From the NCBI GenBank assembly GCA_947311785.1, contig CAMZLW010000075.1, forward strand, positions 1 to 50,630: a stretch of 50,630 nt of DNA. Direction: 5' to 3'. Position numbers and translations under genes: made by a program. This document shows, piece after piece, positions 118 through 11,607 of this stretch (positions are counted from its first letter, which is position 1; the number at the start of each line of letters is the position of its first letter). The notes under the pieces are model-generated. The model saw only the letters and a program-made list of their open reading frames with translations, had not been told where the DNA came from and ran no database searches. Source of the stretch: an uncultured Ignavibacteriales bacterium. GTDB lineage: Bacteria; Bacteroidota; Ignavibacteria; Ignavibacteriales; Melioribacteraceae.

Positions 118-148
118 ACACCCAAAGGGAGAGGGGCTGGGGTGAGTT
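118..148. repeat. G-rich tract, possible half of a dispersed intergenic repeat
   Basis: The stretch GGGAGAGGGGCTGGGGTGAG stands out in this AT-rich DNA. Similar G-rich strings are familiar as one arm of intergenic inverted repeats in many bacteria. The complementary arm is absent here, so only a half-element or a coincidence can be claimed. The rest of 98-224 shows nothing recognisable. Confidence 0.3.
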
Positions 149-224
149 TTTAGATTACCGCCATTTATAAATTAACATAACACTAGTTGATATTCATAAG
201 TCAATAAAAATTGCAAATAGAACT

Positions 225-1433
225 TTATCTTTTTTGTGAATTAATTTGTAGTTTAACCTTTTCTGCAATATACTCTCCAATAGCCAACGAGGCTGTGGCT
301 GCAGGTGAAGGAGCATTTAAGATATGAATAACATTTTCTTTTTCTATTAAATAGAAATCATCAATGAGACCACCAGTTTTATCGCACGCTTGGGCTCTAA
401 CCCCAGCACCACCTTGGGTTAAATCAGTTTCACTAATTTGAGGAATTAATTTTTGCAATGCTTTCACAAATGCCTTTTTACTGAACGAGCGATAGAATTC
501 TCCCATTCCAGTTCGCCAATATTTTTTTGCCACTTTTAAAAATCCAAGCCATGTAATAGAATGAATAGTATCCTTTAAATTAAAACTTATTCGCGAGTAT
601 CCTTCTCTTTTAAAAGAGAAAACAGCGTTAGGACCAGCTTCTACACCACCATCAATTAGGTTTGTAAAGTGAACTCCGAGAAATGGAAAGTTTGGGTCGG
701 GTACTGGATAGATAAGTGTTTTAACAAGGTGCTTTGCTGAGTCTTTAAGTTTGTAATACTCACCTCTAAATGGAATAATACGAACGTCTAAATTGTTTTC
801 AGTTAGTGACGCAACTCTATCGGACTGCAATCCTGCACAACTAATTACAAAATCGGTCTTGTAATTATTGGATTTTGTTTTAACTGTATGAATTGAATTG
901 CTTGTTTCAATTCCAACTACTTCTTCACCAAAAATAATTCTAACTCCTTGCACAAGGAGAACTTCTTTCATTTTTTCAGAAACAATTTTGTAATCTATTA
1001 TTCCAGTTTGCGGAACGTGAATGCCAGCAACACCTTTTACATTTGGTTCATGTTCTTTTAGTTCTGCCTCATTTAACATTTTGAGATTTTGTAAACCATT
1101 ATCAACCCCACGCTGGTATAGGGTTTTAAGATATTCTATTTCACTTTTCTCTGTGGCTACAACAACTTTGCCACAAAGATTATATTTAATATTCTGTTTG
1201 TCGCAGAATTCCAAAAGCATTTTATAACCGCTAATACAGTTCTTTGCTTTTAAACTTCCAGGCTTGTAGTAAATACCCGAGTGTATTACACCGCTATTAT
1301 TTCCCGTTTGATGCTTTGCAACACAATCCTCTTTTTCAAGAATTGTGATATTCACTTTAGGAAATTTCCCTTTTAGTTTTAGTGCTGTAGCTAGCCCAAC
1401 TATACCTGCACCAATTATTGCAAAGTTATACAT
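225..1433 (-). CDS. lhgO: FAD-dependent oxidoreductase, L-2-hydroxyglutarate oxidase (LhgO) family
   Basis: The family oxidises L-2-hydroxyglutarate to 2-oxoglutarate with FAD, usually passing electrons to the membrane quinone pool. The N-terminus starts with a Rossmann fold (G8-A-G-I-V-G13), followed by the family stretch GNNSGVIHSGIYY and a C-terminal FAD-binding block (GGAGVRAQ, then LNAPSPAATASLAIGE). An ATG at 1457 would add eight residues and overlap the upstream gene. I chose the ATG at 1433 because the protein then begins directly at the first beta strand, at about 402 aa, normal for the family. It is the last gene of the polysaccharide operon, an odd place for a metabolite-repair enzyme; a sugar-linked substrate is possible but unproven. 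Confidence 0.85.
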   Translation of the reverse strand: MYNFAIIGAGIVGLATALKLKGKFPKVNITILEKEDCVAKHQTGNNSGVIHSGIYYKPGSLKAKNCISGYKMLLEFCDKQNIKYNLCGKVVVATEKSEIEYLKTLYQRGVDNGLQNLKMLNEAELKEHEPNVKGVAGIHVPQTGIIDYKIVSEKMKEVLLVQGVRIIFGEEVVGIETSNSIHTVKTKSNNYKTDFVISCAGLQSDRVASLTENNLDVRIIPFRGEYYKLKDSAKHLVKTLIYPVPDPNFPFLGVHFTNLIDGGVEAGPNAVFSFKREGYSRISFNLKDTIHSITWLGFLKVAKKYWRTGMGEFYRSFSKKAFVKALQKLIPQISETDLTQGGAGVRAQACDKTGGLIDDFYLIEKENVIHILNAPSPAATASLAIGEYIAEKVKLQINSQKR

Positions 1434-1446
1434 AGTTATCTTTTTA

Positions 1447-2382
1447 TTACAGCTCATTCAAAAAATAATCAATGGTAATTTTTAGCCCCTCGGCACGGTC
1501 AACTTTTGGCTCCCAATTAATTATTTCTTTTGCACGGGTAATATCTGGTTTTCGCACTTTGGGGTCATCAATTGGTAGCTCTTTATAAATAATATCGCTC
1601 TTACTATTAATTGCTTTCTTTACTTCTTCGGCAAATTCTTTAATTGTAATTTCAACTGGATTGCCCATGTTTACTGGGTTTGGTTCATCCGACATTAGAA
1701 GACGGAATATTCCCTCTACCAAATCAGAAACAAAACAAAAACTTCTTGTTTGCAAACCATCTCCAAAAACTGTAATTGGCTTACCTTCAATTGCTTGCGA
1801 AACAAATGCCGGTAATGCTCTTCCATCATTAAGTCGCATGCGTGGACCGTAGGTATTAAAAATTCTTACAATTCTTGTTTCAACTCCGTGATAGCGATGG
1901 TACGCCATAGTCATTGCTTCGGCAAATCGTTTTGCTTCATCGTAAACTCCGCGTGGACCAACGGGGTTTACGTTGCCCCAATAACCTTCTGTTTGTGGAT
2001 GGATTTCAGGGTCGCCATAAACTTCGGATGTTGATGCAAGCAAAAAACGAGCATTCTTTTTTAGTGCTAGCCCTAAAGCCTTGTGTGTTCCGAGCGAACC
2101 AACTTTTAATGTTTGGATAGGCATTTCGAGATAATCAATTGGGCTGGCTGGTGATGCAAAATGCAAGACATAATCTACATTACCAGGCACGTGAATAAAG
2201 TTTGTTACATCGTGTTTTATAAATTTAAAACTATCGTTACCAATTAAGTGTTCTATGTTTTTTAATGACCCTGTAGAAAAATTATCGATACAAACTACAT
2301 CGATATTGTTTTCAATCATTTTTTCGCAAAGATGTGAGCCAAGAAACCCCGCTCCGCCTGTAATTACTGCAACTTTATTCAT
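1447..2382 (-). CDS. uxs: UDP-glucuronate decarboxylase (UDP-xylose synthase), extended SDR
   Basis: The 311-residue protein is a complete extended short-chain dehydrogenase. It has the NAD motif G9-G-A-G12-F-L-G15, the active-site stretch T118-S-E120 followed by VYGD, and the catalytic pair Y147/K151 in YDEAK. Sequence such as [19 protein letters not shown] is typical of UDP-glucuronate decarboxylases, which convert UDP-glucuronate to UDP-xylose in the cytoplasm. Its product would feed the glycosyltransferases encoded just upstream. The 3' end lies against the oxidoreductase gene. A diverged copy of its last 23 codons sits directly upstream (2390-2461). dTDP-glucose dehydratase is less likely on sequence style. 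Confidence 0.85.
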
Positions 2383-2389
2383 TATAATC

Positions 2390-2461
2390 CTATAAAAAAT
2401 AATCTGTCATTGTTTTTAGCCACTTGGTACAACCAATTTTGGGGTTGTCAATAAGTATTTT
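2390..2461 (-). pseudogene. Remnant 3' end of a second SDR (UXS-like) gene
   Basis: Read on the minus strand, this gap encodes [17 protein letters not shown] and a TAG stop. It aligns without gaps to the end of the neighbouring UXS ([17 protein letters not shown]), sharing PK, LK and DYFL. The DNA also resembles 1455-1520, including shared AAAAAATAATC and TTTTTAGCC blocks. There is no start and no upstream part of an SDR gene, since the glycosyltransferase gene ends at 2485. I read it as the tail left after deletion or recombination of a paralogous SDR gene. Confidence 0.5.
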
Positions 2462-2484
2462 TGAAATAATTTTACCTTTACTAC

Positions 2485-3288
2485 TTATTTTTTTTTTGAA
2501 ATTTTCCAGTTGTACTTTTTAAAAAGATATAAAATTGCAAAAAAATGTTTAACTGTAATTTTAGAGAAAATATTCTTTTTAGTAATGCGTTGTTCATGAT
2601 GAAATATTTTAGTTTTAGGATAGTAAAAAACTTTATAATTATTTTGCCACATTTTATAACACATATCTAAATCTTCAGGTCCGTAAAAAATTTGGTCATC
2701 ATACAATCCAGTTTTAACTAATGCTTCTCTTCTAATAAACTGACAAGCACCAATAACATAATCAACATCCATTATTTCTTTGTGGTCATAATCAATCATT
2801 AAATGGTTTTTAAGATTTTTAGAGTTCTTAACAGTATTCAAAAAATCAATTCTTCGCAAAAAAAGAGTAGATAGTTTTGGAAATCTTTTACACGAATACT
2901 GTAAACTACCATCACTATCAACTAATTTTGAACCAACAAGCCCCACATCTAAATTATTTTCCATAAAATAGAATAGTTTATAAATTGTATCTTCAAATAG
3001 TTCCATATCTACGTCTAAGATTAAGGCATATTTTCCATTTGCGAGTTTTAACCCTTGGTTGCGAGCAGGAGCTACTCCCATGTTTTCACTATTCTTCACC
3101 AACATTATTTCTGGATAATCTAATTCAATCATTTCAGTAGTTCCATCATTAGAATAGTTTTCTACCAAAATAATTTCGTAAGTAACACCTTTAGTAAATT
3201 TAATTATTGTGTCTAAACATACCTTAAGCATATCCTTCATCTTCCATGTAATTAAAACAATGGAAACATCTACTTTTCTTTCTTCCAT
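2485..3288 (-). CDS. Glycosyltransferase family 2
   Basis: The 267-residue protein has a GT-A fold. It begins with a beta strand (VSIVLITWKMKDML), carries VENYSNDGT where nucleotide-sugar binding is expected, and has the metal-binding D92-V-D94. The later stretch YGPEDLDMCYKMW is the usual acceptor-side ED motif of rhamnosyltransferase-like GT2 enzymes. There is no membrane segment, so it probably works at the cytoplasmic face on the lipid-linked repeat unit. Donor and linkage cannot be read from sequence. It is the last of three transferases in the operon, 12 bp after the GT4 gene. Confidence 0.85.
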   Translation of the reverse strand: MEERKVDVSIVLITWKMKDMLKVCLDTIIKFTKGVTYEIILVENYSNDGTTEMIELDYPEIMLVKNSENMGVAPARNQGLKLANGKYALILDVDMELFEDTIYKLFYFMENNLDVGLVGSKLVDSDGSLQYSCKRFPKLSTLFLRRIDFLNTVKNSKNLKNHLMIDYDHKEIMDVDYVIGACQFIRREALVKTGLYDDQIFYGPEDLDMCYKMWQNNYKVFYYPKTKIFHHEQRITKKNIFSKITVKHFFAILYLFKKYNWKISKKK

Positions 3289-3299
3289 ATTATCCCATA

Positions 3300-4409
3300 T
3301 TAAATTGAGTTAAAAACACTCACAATTTCTTTTGCAGTTTTGTTTAGAGAAAATTTATTTGCTTGAATTAACGATTTCTTTTTTATTTGCGAACAAAATG
3401 TTTTATCACTTATAATCTTAACTATGCTCCTACTCATAGATTTGTAATCCATTGGGTCATGTAATATACCACCTTCACCAACAACTTCAATTAGCGAAGT
3501 ATTATTTGAACTTATAACAGGAAGGGCACATTGCATTGCTTCGAGTGGCGGATAGCCAAACCCTTCGTATAAAGATGGGAAGATAAAGACATCCGAAATA
3601 TTGTACAATTTTTTTAAAAGTTTATCATCTACGTTAGATAAATGTTTAATATTTTCATTTTTATTAACTTGTGCTAAAATTTTTTCTCCACCGTACCCAA
3701 CTTTACCTACTAAAACAAAAATAAAATCTGTAAAATTCTTTTTCAATTCATTTGCTACTTTAATAATACCTAATATATTTTTTCTGTTTTCAATTTTACC
3801 AACATATAAAATTATGTGTTCCTTGAGCTTTAACTTCCTCTTCAAAGCATTTTTTTCATCTACATCAATATTTTCCTTAACAAACTCAGGGTTTGCCGAT
3901 TGGTAAATAACTTTTATTTTGTTTTCGTCAATTTTATAGTGTTTTAAAATATCCTTCTTTGAATATTCTGAAATAGTAATAATTACATCGCTAATTCTGA
4001 TAGAGAAAAAAGCAAAAAATTGCAAATATTTTCTATAAATAAAGGGTAAAAAATTGGGGTCCGCCTTAAAAATTACATCATGAACAACTGAAATATATTT
4101 ACAAGAACTTATTTTTATTAAAGGAACAATTTGGTTTATCGAAAATAGAATATCAATATTGTGTTTTTTTAAATATATGGGTAAAAAAAAGTTGCTCCAC
4201 AAAGGAGAAAATATTTTTGATGGTAAAAAATTCTTAACTGTGGAAATATTTATGTAAAAATCTGATTCAAAGCTTATAGGCTCGTATGTAAATATATAAT
4301 ACTTGTTTTTTTTATCAACTTTAGGAATTTCTTTTAGCAATAATTCTAAAGACCGTCCTATTCCTGTAATTTTTCGCTCTAATAATCTTGCATCTATACC
4401 AATATTCAT
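3300..4409 (-). CDS. Glycosyltransferase family 4 (GT-B fold)
   Basis: This 369-residue protein shows the standard two-domain GT-B layout. The N-terminus (MNIGIDARLLERKITGIGR) is typical of mannosyltransferase-like family 4 enzymes. The C-terminal nucleotide-sugar domain carries GKIENRKN (205-211) and the EX7E motif E282-GFGYPPL-E290. It would transfer a sugar with retention of configuration onto the growing polysaccharide unit at the inner membrane. It lies 35 bp downstream of the GT2 gene in the same operon. Sugar specificity is unknown. Confidence 0.87.
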   Translation of the reverse strand: MNIGIDARLLERKITGIGRSLELLLKEIPKVDKKNKYYIFTYEPISFESDFYINISTVKNFLPSKIFSPLWSNFFLPIYLKKHNIDILFSINQIVPLIKISSCKYISVVHDVIFKADPNFLPFIYRKYLQFFAFFSIRISDVIITISEYSKKDILKHYKIDENKIKVIYQSANPEFVKENIDVDEKNALKRKLKLKEHIILYVGKIENRKNILGIIKVANELKKNFTDFIFVLVGKVGYGGEKILAQVNKNENIKHLSNVDDKLLKKLYNISDVFIFPSLYEGFGYPPLEAMQCALPVISSNNTSLIEVVGEGGILHDPMDYKSMSRSIVKIISDKTFCSQIKKKSLIQANKFSLNKTAKEIVSVFNSI

Positions 4410-4444
4410 ATATTATTATAAGTTTTTAGTTTAAAAATAAGTTC

Positions 4445-5389
4445 TTACTTTTTTATTCCACCAATTATTAAGCTTAAAAATGCTTTAAGTTTTTGTTTAG
4501 ATTTATTTGGATTAAGTGGAAAAAGTACGGTCCAAATAATTATTTGAGAATACAATTGCAATTTAAGAAGTAATTGCATTATAAACTTATTAAATGATTT
4601 GTAATTTTTAGAAAGAAAAATAAACTTGCTTTTGTATGTCCTTTTTGTAAAGAGTGAATAATCTTTCTTGCCAGAAACACTACCGATATGAGTAATAGAT
4701 AAGTTTGGGACATACAATATTTTATAATTTTTATTAGCTACTCTTTTACATAAATCAAGTTCTTCAAAAAACATAAAATAATCTTCATCAAAACCATTTA
4801 TACTTTCAAATGTATCTGACTTTATAAATAAGCATGCTCCTAAAATCCAATTAACATTTAATTTTTGTTTTTTAGTAAATTTTGCTAGTGTATAAATTAT
4901 GAAACCTTCCACAAAAATATTCATTCCTAATAGTGCAAATATTTCAAAAAAAACATTAGGAAAATAACCAGCTGAAAAATCGAAAAAAGGTTTACGAGTT
5001 TGTTGCTTGGGTCCAATTATGCCTATTGATTCATCTTTGGAAAATAGTTTAAGAATTGGTGTAAATATATCCTCGGTTATAATAGTATCAGGGTTTAAGA
5101 AACAAATATATTTACCACTTGCTTTTGCGTAACCGTAATTGCAACCTTTTCCAAAACCAAGGTTTTTTTCTAAATAATAGAAACTTATATTTTTTTTCTG
5201 AAATTTATTTTCAACTTCTTTTAAACCTTTTTCGGGCGAATTATTATCTACAATAATTATTTCGTAATTTAAATTATCTAAATTTTTTGTAACAGAAATT
5301 AAACTATTAAGACAAACTTCAATTTCCTTTGAAAGATTATAGTTAATGGTTATAATGGAAAGTTGTATTTGTGAATTTTCAGCTATCAT
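4445..5389 (-). CDS. Glycosyltransferase family 2, rhamnosyltransferase-like
   Basis: The 314-residue protein matches the WbbL/rhamnosyltransferase style of GT2 enzymes. It starts with LSIITINYN, has IIVDNNSPEKG, the conserved NLGFGKGCNYG block (76-86), NPD at 99-101 in place of DxD, and FFEELDLCKR in the acceptor region. A hydrophobic C-terminal stretch may anchor it to the membrane. Its start overlaps the flippase stop by 4 bp (ATGA), suggesting translational coupling. Rhamnose as substrate is only suggested by family. Confidence 0.85.
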   Translation of the reverse strand: MIAENSQIQLSIITINYNLSKEIEVCLNSLISVTKNLDNLNYEIIIVDNNSPEKGLKEVENKFQKKNISFYYLEKNLGFGKGCNYGYAKASGKYICFLNPDTIITEDIFTPILKLFSKDESIGIIGPKQQTRKPFFDFSAGYFPNVFFEIFALLGMNIFVEGFIIYTLAKFTKKQKLNVNWILGACLFIKSDTFESINGFDEDYFMFFEELDLCKRVANKNYKILYVPNLSITHIGSVSGKKDYSLFTKRTYKSKFIFLSKNYKSFNKFIMQLLLKLQLYSQIIIWTVLFPLNPNKSKQKLKAFLSLIIGGIKK

Positions 5390-6906
5390 TGGATTTTAAT
5401 TTGTTTTTTGGAGAAGTAATTTAACATTGATCGAATATATTCCTTCTCATCTTTAAGAAGAAAATAATTCCATATAGCAAATAAGTAAAATAATAAAACT
5501 GATATGCTAAAAACTATTTTTATTGAAATACTACCAATAAAAATGGGCGAAACTAACATAATTAAAAGAGAAAACACAATTAGATAATTTCTATTAAAAT
5601 TTAATTTAATTTTTGATGACGTAATTTTAGATAAAATAAAAAACAATATACTAGTATCAATAACTACACGTATCATCCAAACTAAGGCAACTCCCGATAT
5701 ACCATTGTAAATTGCCATATACCACATTGCGATTAAAAATATTGGTAGTTCAACTAATTGAACTTTTGCAGTTATATCAGGTCTTCCTATTCCCTCAATA
5801 AATGCATAAGGAATATAAGCCAAACTATTAAAGAAAATTCCAACAGCAAGAATTCTTAAAATGACTGAACTTTTATTTGCAAACTCAGTACCTAACCAAA
5901 TCTCTAATCCTTCATTTGCAAAAACTAACAGTATAAAAATTATAGGAATAAAAACAATTAAAATATATTTAACAGCTTTTATAGACATTTTTTTTGCAAA
6001 GTTAGGGTCGCTAACATAACTAGCTGAAAATGCGGGGAAGAGAACTCCTGCAATTGCACCCGGAATTATTAGTAATTTAGAAACAACTTCGTAAGGTGTA
6101 GCATAATATGTAATTGCCTCGGCTGAAATTAAAGCTCCAATTAAAAACCTATCAGAATAAATAAAAAATGGAACAATTATATTAGAAAGAGTTAACCAAC
6201 CACCAAATTTAATAATAGGTTTTAGAAGTTCAGTTCTAAAATCAATTCGTTTTAGATTTTTATTTAGCTTAAATATCTGCGTAAAATATAATAACCAAAT
6301 TACAACTCTAATTATTGCTAAAAAGATTACTATCAAAAAAAGATTTTTTGTAAAAAAAAGAGAAACTAATGGAACTAAAAAAGAAGAGGTTCCAAGAATA
6401 ATTCTTATTACACTAATAATTCCAAACTTTTGGTATGCTTCTAGCACACCTCTTATACCAGCCGTTGTTGTAACTATAGGAATTGTTAATATCAAAACAT
6501 AAAAAGTATTTGTGGCTTCTTCTTGAAGAGAGGTTGAAATTTTAAAAACAGATTGTGCTAAATATGGAACACTAAATAATAACACAATTGTAATAAATAT
6601 GCTGAAGATTAGCATCAAAAAAAATGAAGTCCAAAAAACTGAGGGAATCTCATTGGTTTTATTCCCACCTATTTTTTCTGAAATCATTTTGGTTAATGCT
6701 CTTCCAATTCCCAAATCGAAGAAGCTAAAATAACCAATAATTATCCAAGCTAAATTTAGGATTCCAAATTTTTCAACACCTAAATTTTTAATTAATATTG
6801 GGAAAACAATTATTGCAAGCAGTAAAGGAAGCCCATACCCAAAGAGGTTGAAAATGGTATTTTTAGCAATCCTTTTACCACTGTATAAACCGTCTTCTTT
6901 ATTCAT
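5386..6906 (-). CDS. wzx: Polysaccharide flippase, Wzx-like (MOP superfamily)
   Basis: About 506 residues with some 12-14 hydrophobic segments and the N-terminal pattern NTIFNLFGYGLPLLLAIIVFPILI plus LGVEKFG, typical of polysaccharide-biosynthesis flippases. Such proteins move undecaprenyl-diphosphate-linked repeat units across the inner membrane. The start is taken as ATG 6906, which overlaps the polymerase stop codon by one base (TGATG); a GTG one codon earlier is also possible. It sits between the polymerase and the transferases, as expected for a Wzx/Wzy pathway. Confidence 0.85.
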   Translation of the reverse strand: MNKEDGLYSGKRIAKNTIFNLFGYGLPLLLAIIVFPILIKNLGVEKFGILNLAWIIIGYFSFFDLGIGRALTKMISEKIGGNKTNEIPSVFWTSFFLMLIFSIFITIVLLFSVPYLAQSVFKISTSLQEEATNTFYVLILTIPIVTTTAGIRGVLEAYQKFGIISVIRIILGTSSFLVPLVSLFFTKNLFLIVIFLAIIRVVIWLLYFTQIFKLNKNLKRIDFRTELLKPIIKFGGWLTLSNIIVPFFIYSDRFLIGALISAEAITYYATPYEVVSKLLIIPGAIAGVLFPAFSASYVSDPNFAKKMSIKAVKYILIVFIPIIFILLVFANEGLEIWLGTEFANKSSVILRILAVGIFFNSLAYIPYAFIEGIGRPDITAKVQLVELPIFLIAMWYMAIYNGISGVALVWMIRVVIDTSILFFILSKITSSKIKLNFNRNYLIVFSLLIMLVSPIFIGSISIKIVFSISVLLFYLFAIWNYFLLKDEKEYIRSMLNYFSKKQIKIQ

Positions 6907-8234
6907 CACTTTATTCTTTGATTTGAGGAACTATTACGAATAGCAATTTTCTCTATCATTGGTAGAAACACAAGGATAAAAAAAAGACTAATGTACCATT
7001 GGTTTAACTTTGTTGCTAGTGTTAAAAAAGAGAATCCAATTATTAAAAAGAAATAGATAAGAATTGCAAATATGTATATTTGCCTTTTTTCATAAAACTT
7101 GAACCATAACCAAGTAATTATAAGTCCTAAGAAGTATGGACCTAAAAAAACACCTGCAGTTCCAAAATCAGCATGTAATTCTCGTAAATAAGTTCCCGTG
7201 TTAGTCCACATTGGTATAAAATATCCTTTTGAGAAAAAAACTGGTTTTTCAATTATTCCTAATCTAGATAAGAAAACATGAAATATAAAGAAAGTGTTTT
7301 CACCAAAATTTACTTGTTCCTTTTCTTTTTCAAGATATTTACTAAATACACCCACATCACTACTAAGATAAAGATATATTGAAGGAGAAATAATCATATT
7401 ATCACTTAACTCTCTTAGTTCTTTTGTTGCTCCTTGATAGTTTTCGTGTGAACCTCTTCCAAGTCGAATAAACGAAGCCGCAATTATTAGAAATACTAGA
7501 AGTAGAACTGATGAAATAATAGCATTGCCTCTAAAGAATTTGAATCTTTGTAAAGAATCACTATTAAGAAGATGTCGAAATAGAAAAAAGGAAAATAAAA
7601 ATTCTAGTAGAGTTAGTAGCAACTCGGCTCTACCAAAATAAGTTAGTTCTTTAAGAACAATGCCAATAAATGGTAGAAATGCTAGTAACGAAAATTTTCT
7701 TTTGTACGCAGTATAAATGCCAGACAAAAAGACAGCAACATAAACAAAAGCAGGAAGAATTGGAATAAAATCTTTTATTTCACCATCGACATTCATTCTA
7801 TATATTACAGCAGCATTTATAAGAACTGATTTAATACTTCCAAACATCCCAACAAGAACATACCAACGATGAAGTGCAACAAAAATACCAACAATGCTAA
7901 AAAAAATGACGGCATACTTTAAAGTACTTCCTCCATCACTAACAATAGGTAGTGATATTTTAGTTTTGGGGATTTCGGATTTCCAATTTGGTATTAAATA
8001 TTTAGCACTTAAAACGGTTAAAGTTCCAAGAATATATGAAAGAAATGAACCGATAATAAAAAACCATGCAATTGGAACAACATCAGGGTAAGGTAAATAT
8101 TTCAATTCATAAAAAAAAGTCAATCCACCCATAATTATAGAATAAAGAGTTAGATGATTGACCCAGTTTTTAAATATTATTTTGCCTAAGAAAACTCCAA
8201 GTAATGCGACAAAGCCTACTAACAATAAACTCAT
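6906..8234 (-). CDS. O-antigen/exopolysaccharide polymerase-like membrane protein (Wzy-like)
   Basis: The 442-residue protein has about ten or more membrane segments and a large polar loop around residues 265-350, the topology of Wzy polymerases. Wzy sequences diverge strongly, so the call rests on topology and on its position between wzz and wzx. The polar loop includes RLGRGSHENYQG and LHADFGTAG; the latter resembles conserved stretches in oligosaccharide repeat-unit polymerases. It would join repeat units in the periplasm. It starts 3 bp after the wzz-like gene. An O-antigen ligase is the main alternative. Confidence 0.7.
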   Translation of the reverse strand: MSLLLVGFVALLGVFLGKIIFKNWVNHLTLYSIIMGGLTFFYELKYLPYPDVVPIAWFFIIGSFLSYILGTLTVLSAKYLIPNWKSEIPKTKISLPIVSDGGSTLKYAVIFFSIVGIFVALHRWYVLVGMFGSIKSVLINAAVIYRMNVDGEIKDFIPILPAFVYVAVFLSGIYTAYKRKFSLLAFLPFIGIVLKELTYFGRAELLLTLLEFLFSFFLFRHLLNSDSLQRFKFFRGNAIISSVLLLVFLIIAASFIRLGRGSHENYQGATKELRELSDNMIISPSIYLYLSSDVGVFSKYLEKEKEQVNFGENTFFIFHVFLSRLGIIEKPVFFSKGYFIPMWTNTGTYLRELHADFGTAGVFLGPYFLGLIITWLWFKFYEKRQIYIFAILIYFFLIIGFSFLTLATKLNQWYISLFFILVFLPMIEKIAIRNSSSNQRIK

Positions 8235-8237
8235 AAT

Positions 8238-9458
8238 CTACCCTTTTTCAAACTTGAGTTTATATAATCTAATAATTCTTTTAGCAAAATTATTTTGTTT
8301 TTCTTGTATTATATTATTTTGTTTTTCTCTTGTAATAGCTCGTTCACTAGAAAAGACAAATGGAATTAGAAAAAAACTAACTAAGAACAAAGCTCCTAAA
8401 ATTATTACCGACTTTTTAGGAGCATATTTTAATTGTGCTGGAACTGCTTTATCTATAATTAATAAGGTTGGCATATTTTTTTGTTCTTCAACTTTAGCTT
8501 GTTCAAACATTGGCAAAGTAAATTCCATAATCTTACTTTGTATTTCAACTTCTCTAAACAGTCTGTAATATGCAATTACAATATCTGGCATATTTTTAAA
8601 TGGAATTAAAATATTTGAGATTGAAGAAAGTTTGTTCGAATATTTTAATTCAGAAACCTTTTTTCTAAAAATTTCAACTTCTGAAAGTAGTTTAATATAC
8701 TGTGGTGAATTTTTACCACTAGTAGCTTTTAACATATGTAACATAACTTCACGCTTGGTAAGTTCAGCTTCAATTTCGGCAGCGGCTTTAAACGCAATTT
8801 CTAATTGCTCTGGAACAGCAAAAATTCCATATTTTTTTTGGAATACATACATAGAGTCTTCAGCAGTACGCAAATCTCTTACATTTTTATTATATCTATC
8901 TTCAACAAATTTTCTATTTTCTTTTGCACTTCTAACTGCCAATTCTATATTCATACTATCAGCTAATTCAACAAAATAATTAGCAATATCAGCACTCAAT
9001 TGTGGATTTTCATTAACAACACTTATTTCAATTAACCCATATTCATTTGGGTCAAATACTAAATCACCACCCATCATCTTCATAAGTTTATCAAAGTTTC
9101 TATCTTCTACTTCATAATATTCGTAAAGGTTAAATTTATTTACAACCTTTTCAATAATGCTTCTACTCTCTAATAATCCAAGTATTAAATCTTCATTGGT
9201 GGAAGAAACTCCAAACAATTTTGCACCAAGCGATAATGCAGAATTACCCCCCATCAAACTACTTAGCCCGCCCATTGAGTTTTCTGGAGCTAAAATAACT
9301 TTTGCAGTAGCTCTAAATGTTTCTGGTATTAAGAAAGATATAGTTGTAGAGATAACTGTTACTGCAAGTAAATTAATAATCAAAAACTTTTTCCATTTAT
9401 AAAGTACACTTAAATAATCTGTAAATGATAATTCTCTTTTTTCTTTGATTTCTTTCAT
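8238..9458 (-). CDS. wzz: Chain-length determinant protein (Wzz/GumC-like), no kinase domain
   Basis: The 406-residue protein has a membrane segment near residues 27-45, the Wzz-type sequence FRATAKVILAP just after it, a long periplasmic helical domain (about 60-340), and a second membrane segment near 350-372 preceded by PAQLKYAPKKS. It has no Walker A or B motif and no Tyr-rich tail, so it is a co-polymerase without the fused BY-kinase of Wzc. It would set polymer length together with the polymerase and the SLBB exporter. It follows the gene-remnant region 9510-10164. Confidence 0.85.
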   Translation of the reverse strand: MKEIKEKRELSFTDYLSVLYKWKKFLIINLLAVTVISTTISFLIPETFRATAKVILAPENSMGGLSSLMGGNSALSLGAKLFGVSSTNEDLILGLLESRSIIEKVVNKFNLYEYYEVEDRNFDKLMKMMGGDLVFDPNEYGLIEISVVNENPQLSADIANYFVELADSMNIELAVRSAKENRKFVEDRYNKNVRDLRTAEDSMYVFQKKYGIFAVPEQLEIAFKAAAEIEAELTKREVMLHMLKATSGKNSPQYIKLLSEVEIFRKKVSELKYSNKLSSISNILIPFKNMPDIVIAYYRLFREVEIQSKIMEFTLPMFEQAKVEEQKNMPTLLIIDKAVPAQLKYAPKKSVIILGALFLVSFFLIPFVFSSERAITREKQNNIIQEKQNNFAKRIIRLYKLKFEKG

Positions 9459-9509
9459 GTATTTTTCTCATATTACTTTAATGATATAATAATTCTAACA
9501 ATCTATTTA

Positions 9510-9575
9510 CTACTTAAACGCCAAATAAGCTGTTGTAGCTACTACCACAATACGTGCGGTGCGGGTTAAATAAAA
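9510..9575 (-). pseudogene. Remnant 3' end of a second SLBB export gene
   Basis: On the minus strand this stretch encodes FYLTRTARI, nine variable residues' worth of sequence shortened by three, then YLAFK and TAG. The intact export gene (10168-11583) ends the same way, FYLTRTARI-x(10)-YLAFK, so the copy is three codons shorter and carries several conservative changes. Homology covers both DNA and frame but stops within a few bases on each side. Because the differences mostly keep the protein sense, it looks like the tail of a once-functional related gene rather than a fresh duplication. Confidence 0.7.
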
Positions 9576-9582
9576 ACACTTA

Positions 9583-10164
9583 TTAACTATTCAAAGAGCC
9601 TATTATTTTCCAATAACCACCTTTATTTGGTCCAATTCTTTTCAATACGCTCTTTTTTTTCAATTTATCTAAATTATATTTAACTCCATCCTCGGTAATA
9701 TACCCCAAATGTTCTGCAATTTCCTTCCGAGTTATTTTAGGATTATCTGTAATTAGCTCTAAAATTTCTTGGGTAGTTTCTTGGGTAGTTTCTTCAATTC
9801 TTCCAAAATTACTACAATCTTTTTCTTTTTCAAAAACTATTGCAAATCCAGTACCCATGTCTTTATAATATGGTGCAGGAAGTCCTGAATCTTTGCAATA
9901 TTTAATAATATTAGAAATACCTCTTCCCCAAACTTCAATATATCCAGCTCTAAAAAATACTTTAGCTATATCAGGATTAGCAGGTTCGGATGTATGTTTA
10001 TCCATTAAGGTTGCAATTGTCCAATTTTCAGGTAATTCTCCATTGTTGTATATCATCATCCAATTACTGTAAACACTAATTTGAATTGCAAATCCGCAAA
10101 TCCATTTCAGGTATTCGTCCTTCCAGATTCTTTTATACTCTATATTTTGGTTTTCATTATTCAT
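9583..10164 (-). pseudogene. AlbA_2-type ATP-binding transcriptional regulator with internal deletion
   Basis: The frame is open for 193 codons but joins two distant parts of a family that is normally about 450-500 residues. Residues 1-26 (NIEYKRIWKDEYLKWICGFA) are the start of the AlbA_2 DNA-binding domain. From about residue 27 (IQISVY, then NNGELPENWT and FFRAGYIEVWGRGI) it continues as the C-terminal half of the HATPase_c_4 domain, followed by a winged helix (TRKEIAEHLG). The rest of AlbA_2 and most of the ATP-binding domain are missing; the junction is near 10086. A repeat TTQE-TTQE occurs near residue 130. It sits inside the polysaccharide operon between two copies of the SLBB gene's 3' end. 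Confidence 0.75.
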
Positions 10165-10167
10165 TTA

Positions 10168-11583
10168 CTATTTAAACGCCAAATAAACTGTTGCGGCAGC
10201 TGCAACAATTGCTGCAATACGTGCGGTGCGTGTTAAATAAAAATCGAAAGTACGGGGCAATTCTTTTGGCACCCAAATTAAATCGCCAGATTCAATTGTA
10301 TATTGATAGTCTGCATCAGTCATATCAATATACGCCCTAGTTTTACCTTTTATAAGATATACTTCACTCTTAGCCGCATTACCAATTCCACCCGCTTTAT
10401 TTAGGTAATACGAGTAATCCATTCCTTCGGTAAACTCAATAAAGCCTGGGTTCATAACCTGTCCGTAAACATTAACTAAGCCAGTAATTTCGGGTATGTA
10501 AATTATATCTCCATCTTTTACAATAAATTTACTATTGTCGGAACTATCATTTAACACTTCATTAAAATTAACTGTAACTAACGATTTTGCAAGACGCAAT
10601 TGGTTATCGTATTTAAGACTTGCAGAATCTTCAGGCTCAATGTTTGCCATTCTATTCATCATCAGAATATCTGTTTCTACCGAAAATGCTTCTAAATTAA
10701 AAGTTCTTCTTCTATCTTGGTAAGGTTGCTCTTTTCTATTTCGTGTTTTATTCTGAATAGAACCACGTATTAACTCTGAATTTAGTAAATCGGCATTTGC
10801 TTTAAAACCTCCAGCTTTTTCTATTACTTCTTTAATAGTGGTATTATTTTTTGTAATATAAATGTAGCCTGGTTTATTTACCTCGCCGCCAATAAGTACT
10901 TTGTAATCACGTTTTTGCGTTTCGTTGGAAACTACTCTTATTCTATCCCCTCGTTTTAATTCAGGGTTTTCTTCGAGAGTTGTTGCAATTATTTCGTCAT
11001 TCATTCCGTCGTAACTTAAACGAGTAATTTCTATCCTATCAATATTTTCGTATGCAGGATTTATTCCACGTGCAAATAGGATTGCACATTTTAATTTATC
11101 TCCTTCTACATATTGAAATTGTGTTGGCTTATTTACAGCACCTTCAACTTCAATAAAATTACGATGCCAATCTAATTGGGGAAAAATTAGAACATCTCCA
11201 TTTAACAAATATGGATTCTCGTTATAGTCTGCAGTTAATCTAAATTTTTGTAAATCTATAATTTGCCCAGAACCATCCATGTGCTTTAGTAAAATTCCGC
11301 GCTCAGCATACTCATCAATTTCGTCTTTCAATAATTTAAGTGAATAAGCATCTTTTGTAGTAGATAATAGGGCAATTTTATATTTATTATAAATACGAGT
11401 TACAAACTCATCCACACGCTCTATGGCAGAAGCTGGGAAAGTTCCGTTTGTAATAAAATCGCCACCAACAGTAACTGAAATTTTATTTAATGCCAACATC
11501 GAAGCATTTTGCATATTGCTCATATCTTGAGCAAAAAATGTTACTGAAAGTAAAATTGACAAAAATATTATTTTAAATTTCAT
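10168..11583 (-). CDS. Polysaccharide export protein with SLBB domains (Wza-like)
   Basis: The 471-residue protein has a signal peptide (MKFKIIFLSILLSVTFFAQ) and at least three SLBB-type segments (FIEVEGAVNKPTQF; VLIGGEVNKPGYI; VNVYGQVMNPGFI). It ends with a hydrophobic stretch (near 450-468) that could cross the outer membrane like the Wza C-terminal helix. There is no lipobox cysteine, unlike classical Wza. It would form the export channel for the polymer. An upstream in-frame ATG at 11607 lies before the predicted transcription start, whereas ATG 11583 has AAAGGAAG at good spacing, so 11583 is the start. First gene of the polysaccharide operon. Confidence 0.85.
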   Translation of the reverse strand: MKFKIIFLSILLSVTFFAQDMSNMQNASMLALNKISVTVGGDFITNGTFPASAIERVDEFVTRIYNKYKIALLSTTKDAYSLKLLKDEIDEYAERGILLKHMDGSGQIIDLQKFRLTADYNENPYLLNGDVLIFPQLDWHRNFIEVEGAVNKPTQFQYVEGDKLKCAILFARGINPAYENIDRIEITRLSYDGMNDEIIATTLEENPELKRGDRIRVVSNETQKRDYKVLIGGEVNKPGYIYITKNNTTIKEVIEKAGGFKANADLLNSELIRGSIQNKTRNRKEQPYQDRRRTFNLEAFSVETDILMMNRMANIEPEDSASLKYDNQLRLAKSLVTVNFNEVLNDSSDNSKFIVKDGDIIYIPEITGLVNVYGQVMNPGFIEFTEGMDYSYYLNKAGGIGNAAKSEVYLIKGKTRAYIDMTDADYQYTIESGDLIWVPKELPRTFDFYLTRTARIAAIVAAAATVYLAFK

Positions 11584-11607
11584 TTTTCTTCCTTTTGTGA
11601 AAAACAA

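Follow-up and report, generated by a model that had tools for sequence, protein, structure and literature searches.

Two gene-end scars beside a capsule assembly block in an uncultured Ignavibacteriales bacterium probably reflect separate events and not the edges of the imported cassette

The locus considered here, a window of 50,630 nucleotides from an uncultured Ignavibacteriales bacterium, carries a polysaccharide assembly block (wzz, wzy, wzx and three glycosyltransferase genes) with a diverged gene end at either side. We consider it rather probable that these two scars stem from two separate events and that neither is an edge of the foreign cassette: the one upstream of wzz would be a one-sided junction formed with an AlbA-type gene, the cassette would have been joined to the resident DNA by a separate crossover within wzz, and the one behind the last glycosyltransferase would be an old relic of a UDP-glucuronate decarboxylase-type (UXS-like) gene.

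Results

The intact SLBB polysaccharide-export gene (10168..11607, minus strand, as are the AlbA remnant, the scars, wzz, the assembly block and the UXS gene of the window below; Pfam SLBB/SLBB_2) has orthologues at 70–79% identity in congeners G001–G004, with 70% in G004. A second, diverged 3' end of this gene, hereafter scar 1, lies upstream of wzz at 9510..9576, as the preliminary description of the locus had claimed, and its template is the last 25 codons of SLBB. In the alignment 60 of 67 bases are identical, with in-frame deletions of 6 nt and 3 nt; the reading frame is kept, and the translation FYLTRTARIVVVATTAYLAFK aligns to the SLBB end FYLTRTARIAAIVAAAATVYLAFK, both running to a stop codon. 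It reaches a local score of 75, whereas none of 2000 dinucleotide shuffles exceeds 29. Set against chance matching, the alternative raised for both tails, each scar scores above the maximum of 2000 shuffles. The differences fall 1/2/4 at codon positions 1/2/3, a distribution over only 67 nt from which import and in situ duplication are indistinguishable for scar 1 alone. An assembly duplication is an unlikely source of the scars, because the copies have diverged and AlbA occupies the same site in independent assemblies.

Compared with the SLBB tails of other genomes, scar 1 is of resident type, matching the window's own tail best (score 91) and that of G001 next (79). In genomes that carry the related wzz-wzy pair, the SLBB tails available for comparison are unlike scar 1, with scores of at most 28.

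Between SLBB and scar 1 lies the remnant of an SLFN_AlbA_2/HATPase_c_4/winged-HTH gene (9583..10164), a 193-aa ORF identified by Pfam and homologue comparison. The intact homologue of each tail had been placed directly outside the block; this holds for UXS, whose start is 8 nt from scar 2 (described below), but not for SLBB, where the AlbA remnant intervenes. The ORF retains amino acids 4–26, 280–386 and 483–537 of a 539-aa homologue, and the AlbA_2 domain is deleted. Because the full-length G004 homologue has AlbA_2, HATPase_c_4 and wHTH domains (Pfam), whereas the window ORF has HATPase_c_4 and HTH only, it is a deletion remnant and not a complete member of the SLFN_AlbA_2/HATPase_c_4 family. 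Middle-deleted AlbA_2 genes are seen in four genomes of the genus (window 9583–10164, L054 7325–8055, L055 1120–1404 and L098 3179–3454), each keeping its first 26–43 residues and then jumping to residue 280–394.

The same site can be followed through the relatives. In G002 and G004 a full-length 539-aa AlbA starts 4 nt past the SLBB stop, with wzz coming after a further 150 bp or so, and G003 has a broken, internally deleted AlbA copy there. In G029 SLBB is followed directly by wzz, which gives an empty site; G001 has the same arrangement, free of AlbA at that position, although an AlbA remnant lies on the opposite side of its SLBB gene. Since AlbA stands at the same site in several relatives, scar 1 sits behind a gene that is common to them. 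A duplicate of the SLBB tail was not found behind AlbA in G002, G003 or G004 (18 tests, of which only the one with G002's own tail reached P 0.017). Scar 1 is therefore specific to the window's lineage, although the AlbA gene at the site is shared. The ends of AlbA have no convincing terminal inverted repeats. Three congeners share a conserved spacer of about 150 bp that separates AlbA from wzz (L052 3796–3944, L053 4199–4345 and L054 8056–8203), and in two of the three it contains an inverted repeat, GGATTAATATAAATCC, upstream of wzz.

Past scar 1, the wzz leader (9459..9509) is similar to that of congeners in which AlbA precedes wzz; against shuffles, its intergenic alignment gives P 0.002 with G004, 0.01 with G003 and 0.22 with G002. 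The first 50 codons of wzz (9309..9458) are of congener type, with 74/74/70% identity to G004/G002/G029 and 30–50% to the other wzz class; the congener values are on a par with the 70% that SLBB shares with G004. Beyond codon 50, identity to the congener type falls to about 39% on average, and identity to the other class rises from 41% to 53%. The excursion statistic reaches its maximum at codon 50, a value that none of 5000 permutations attains. In the tree of the C-terminal part, the window groups with the other class (support 91/97, and 95/98 in a reduced set), and a clade of the window with the three closest congener-type sequences is rejected (P 5e-5); in the reduced set, a grouping of the window with all type-1 rows is not rejected (P 0.29). 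The N-terminal tree, built on 50 columns, is weak (P 0.048 for the type-2 grouping and 0.065 for the type-1 grouping).

Because codons 1–50 are of congener type and the remainder belongs to another class that is linked to the same wzy type, we infer that the true left edge of the cassette is inside wzz, near 9300–9330. Scar 1, the leader and the start of wzz then lie on the resident side, since wzz codons 1–50 are congener-like and the SLBB tails of the other-class genomes are unlike scar 1.

Downstream of this breakpoint, codons 51–406 of wzz, together with wzy, wzx and three glycosyltransferase genes, form an AT-rich block (2485..9308) delimited by identity and GC content. No counterpart of its wzy was found at the congener loci compared, and this wzy is 60–63% identical to that of order-level relatives carrying the same wzz class; several genomes of that class, from other families, have a wzy 50–63% identical to the window's directly after wzz. 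GC content drops from 33–38% to 25–30% in the block, a comparison of base composition made within the window. The lack of a congener match for wzy and the lower GC bear out the earlier view that the assembly block is foreign relative to the genus. Its right edge is probably between 2461 and 2485, near the change in GC.

The second scar lies at about 2393..2461, 8 nt upstream of the start of the intact UXS-like SDR gene (1447..2382; Pfam GDP_Man_Dehyd/Epimerase), which has relatives at 81–84% in G003 and G001:C18. This scar is a decayed UXS 3' tail: it matches the window's own UXS tail in frame over 67 ungapped nt, 46 of them identical, with a score of 50 against a maximum of 42 (0/2000 shuffles reach it). 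The diverged SDR gene end that had been described after the last glycosyltransferase is thus real. At the protein level it is weak, with a profile E of 3.4 in a six-frame search of the window, third-ranked after UXS and one other, and the profile match falls at the right C-terminal place. Among 59 SDR tails the best match is the window's own UXS, and no UXS tail of a relative is closer. A tail of GMD, fucose synthase, RmlB, CapD or another epimerase was considered and set aside, there being no such profile among the matches listed.

The differences in scar 2 are spread evenly over codon positions 1/2/3 (8/6/7), and on this basis it appears to be the remnant of an old, decayed copy. The same evenness, unlike the pattern of scar 1, makes a single event behind both scars unlikely. 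Nor does scar 2 appear to be the right edge of the block. Such an edge would carry the start of the right-hand gene, as a cut inside UXS would leave its 5' end, whereas what scar 2 preserves, upstream of the intact gene, is a 3' tail. Neither tail looks to be of donor ancestry, scar 1 being nearest to the window's own SLBB and G001 and scar 2 to the window's own UXS.

Duplicated flanks also occur at other AlbA-type genes. The sample comprised the relatives, 80 loci in public genomes and the order, and a repeat was defined as a flank-to-flank direct repeat with a local score of at least 40. Such repeats surround 21 of 124 AlbA ORFs and 11 of 330 other ORFs (Fisher P 3e-6), and a wider AlbA scan of the order gave one further case in 15. 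About ten of the AlbA cases may be dispersed repeats or integron-like arrays (e.g. L165, L178, L151 and L174); when these and the window are removed, 10/113 AlbA ORFs compare with 11/330 others (P 0.036), and the controls still include RhuM and toxin-antitoxin genes. On the Marinilabilia rubra contig of L165, positions 124–3664 read repeat-AlbA-repeat-AlbA-repeat, possibly an integron cassette array.

The most clear-cut cases are those in which a gene end is duplicated: at AlbA in L084 (glycosyltransferase, 3'), L129/L127 (cas1, 5'), L103, L071 and L077 (5' in each) and L130 (3'), and at PDC-S01 (AAA_14/DUF4143) genes in L058 (LhgO, 5' end) and L217 (UXS, 3' end, 468 bp). In L127/L129 (2826–4480) the AlbA_2 gene stands before cas1, a gene named here from its sequence, and the first approximately 38 cas1 codons are duplicated upstream of AlbA_2. 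In L217 (1870–5174, in G001) the PDC-S01 gene lies between a UXS gene and a second UXS 3' end of 156 codons at 92% identity, and its neighbours include more ATPase fragments, an AlbA gene with a duplicated gene start and an MNT/HEPN-like pair. The PDC-S01 gene of L058 (12345–13921) is found between a 53-codon scar and an intact gene for an LhgO-like oxidoreductase; the window's own cluster ends in this gene too (225–1457).

In seven coding cases outside the window, the differences between copies fall 38/13/78 at codon positions 1/2/3. Second positions thus account for 13 of 129, below the share of about 26% assumed for in situ duplication with decay of one copy (P 1e-5). Because second-position differences are rarer than in situ decay would give, the copies in these seven cases are probably alleles that were joined after diverging and that met by recombination between strains. 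An origin of the copies from different strains is supported in L217, L077 and L130; the window's repeat has only 67 nt. We suggest tentatively, as an idea that may well prove wrong, that solitary AlbA_2/HATPase_c_4 and PDC-S01 genes of Bacteroidota and Ignavibacteria spread independently of a transposase or integrase, entering repeatedly beside gene ends with 50–470 bp of duplicated target, and that the duplicates are imported alleles. A literature search found no published work on the mobility of AlbA or DUF4143 genes.

Discussion

We propose that a piece of DNA bearing an SLBB 3' end and AlbA recombined by homology on one side with the resident SLBB, while its other side was attached, in the absence of homology, 22 codons short of where the resident SLBB copy ends. 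The product would have had the order SLBB-AlbA-(old SLBB tail)-wzz, and the middle of AlbA would have been lost later. Independently, the capsule assembly genes would have been replaced, with the left crossover inside wzz near codon 50. Scar 2 would be older: what neutral decay has left of the 3' end of an earlier UXS copy, which belonged to the same lineage and stood upstream of today's UXS. The order of these events, the one-sided mechanism and the former presence of a full second UXS gene are what we infer from the arrangement of the present sequence.

Other histories would yield much of the same locus. AlbA may have inserted by a transposition-like process that copied about 67 bp of target, with the spare copy decaying in place; the repeat-gene-repeat geometry is that of certain restriction-modification genes (PMC3874152, PMC1643837), and AlbA ends without convincing terminal inverted repeats suit such a process. 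Scar 1, however, keeps its frame, and second codon positions are spared in the other coding cases, as they are between functional alleles, so that we regard this history as unlikely. A mirror image of our proposal, in which SLBB-AlbA was resident and acquired, directly behind AlbA, a short piece (SLBB tail, leader and wzz start) of a close relative that had no AlbA, with the cassette swapped separately, gives the same final gene order, and scar 1 resembles G001, where that site is free of AlbA, almost as closely as it does the window's own tail. Among the genomes compared it is indistinguishable from the one-sided AlbA junction, and it needs a non-homologous join midway through an otherwise homologous region; we hold it to be quite improbable.

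The preliminary description held that everything from wzz to the last glycosyltransferase arrived in one step, bringing along the ends of the genes that had flanked it, so that both tails remain as scars. The AT-richness of the block, the dissimilarity of wzy and most of wzz to the congener loci compared, and the position of scar 1 against the wzz leader all agree with this. The mosaic structure of wzz and the orientation of scar 2 nonetheless largely refute it. Scar 1 is of resident type, scar 2 is the wrong gene end with a different decay pattern, and AlbA is left unexplained, so that the scars do not serve as the block's own ends and a single arrival now seems very improbable. Nor can they be kept as base-level boundaries of a serotype switch, scar 1 being the AlbA junction and scar 2 an older UXS relic. 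The one-sided AlbA junction with a separate crossover in wzz remains the reading that we prefer.

Serotype change by recombination around an O-antigen or capsule cluster is a familiar process, in which a low-GC wzx-wzy-transferase block is swapped between lineages. The window resembles it in having such a variable, low-GC block swapped, and differs in that the left breakpoint is inside wzz and the scars are not the junctions of the swap. To take the scars as serotype-switch boundaries would mislead, the real left boundary being the crossover inside wzz.

For scar 1, two known kinds of event offer likenesses. Insertion with long target duplication, known from restriction-modification genes (Nobusato et al., 2000; Furuta et al., 2010, as cited in PMC3874152 and PMC1643837), involves, in these accounts, a single mobile gene or unit, direct target repeats on the order of 100 bp, a target gene that stays functional and an empty site in relatives. 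Here, too, the SLBB tail is present on both sides of AlbA, and the site is uninterrupted in G029. Unlike those cases, the cargo is AlbA_2/HATPase_c_4 (elsewhere PDC-S01) and not a restriction-modification system, and at the other coding loci the paired copies resemble alleles that have diverged. Homology-facilitated illegitimate recombination (de Vries and Wackernagel, 2002; Prudhomme, 2002, as cited in PMC2884548), of which T6SS arrays are an instance (PMC5361080), is described there with one end homologous and the other not, and with displaced 3' gene ends behind the incoming gene; in the window, the junction of AlbA with scar 1 is non-homologous. Scar 1 fits either insertion with long target duplication or such one-sided recombination, and its explanation is thus of a known kind, to which the wider AlbA/PDC-S01 pattern is added. 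If that pattern is borne out, long target duplication extends beyond restriction-modification genes, and comparing differences by codon position is a means to ask whether flank repeats were made in place or imported.
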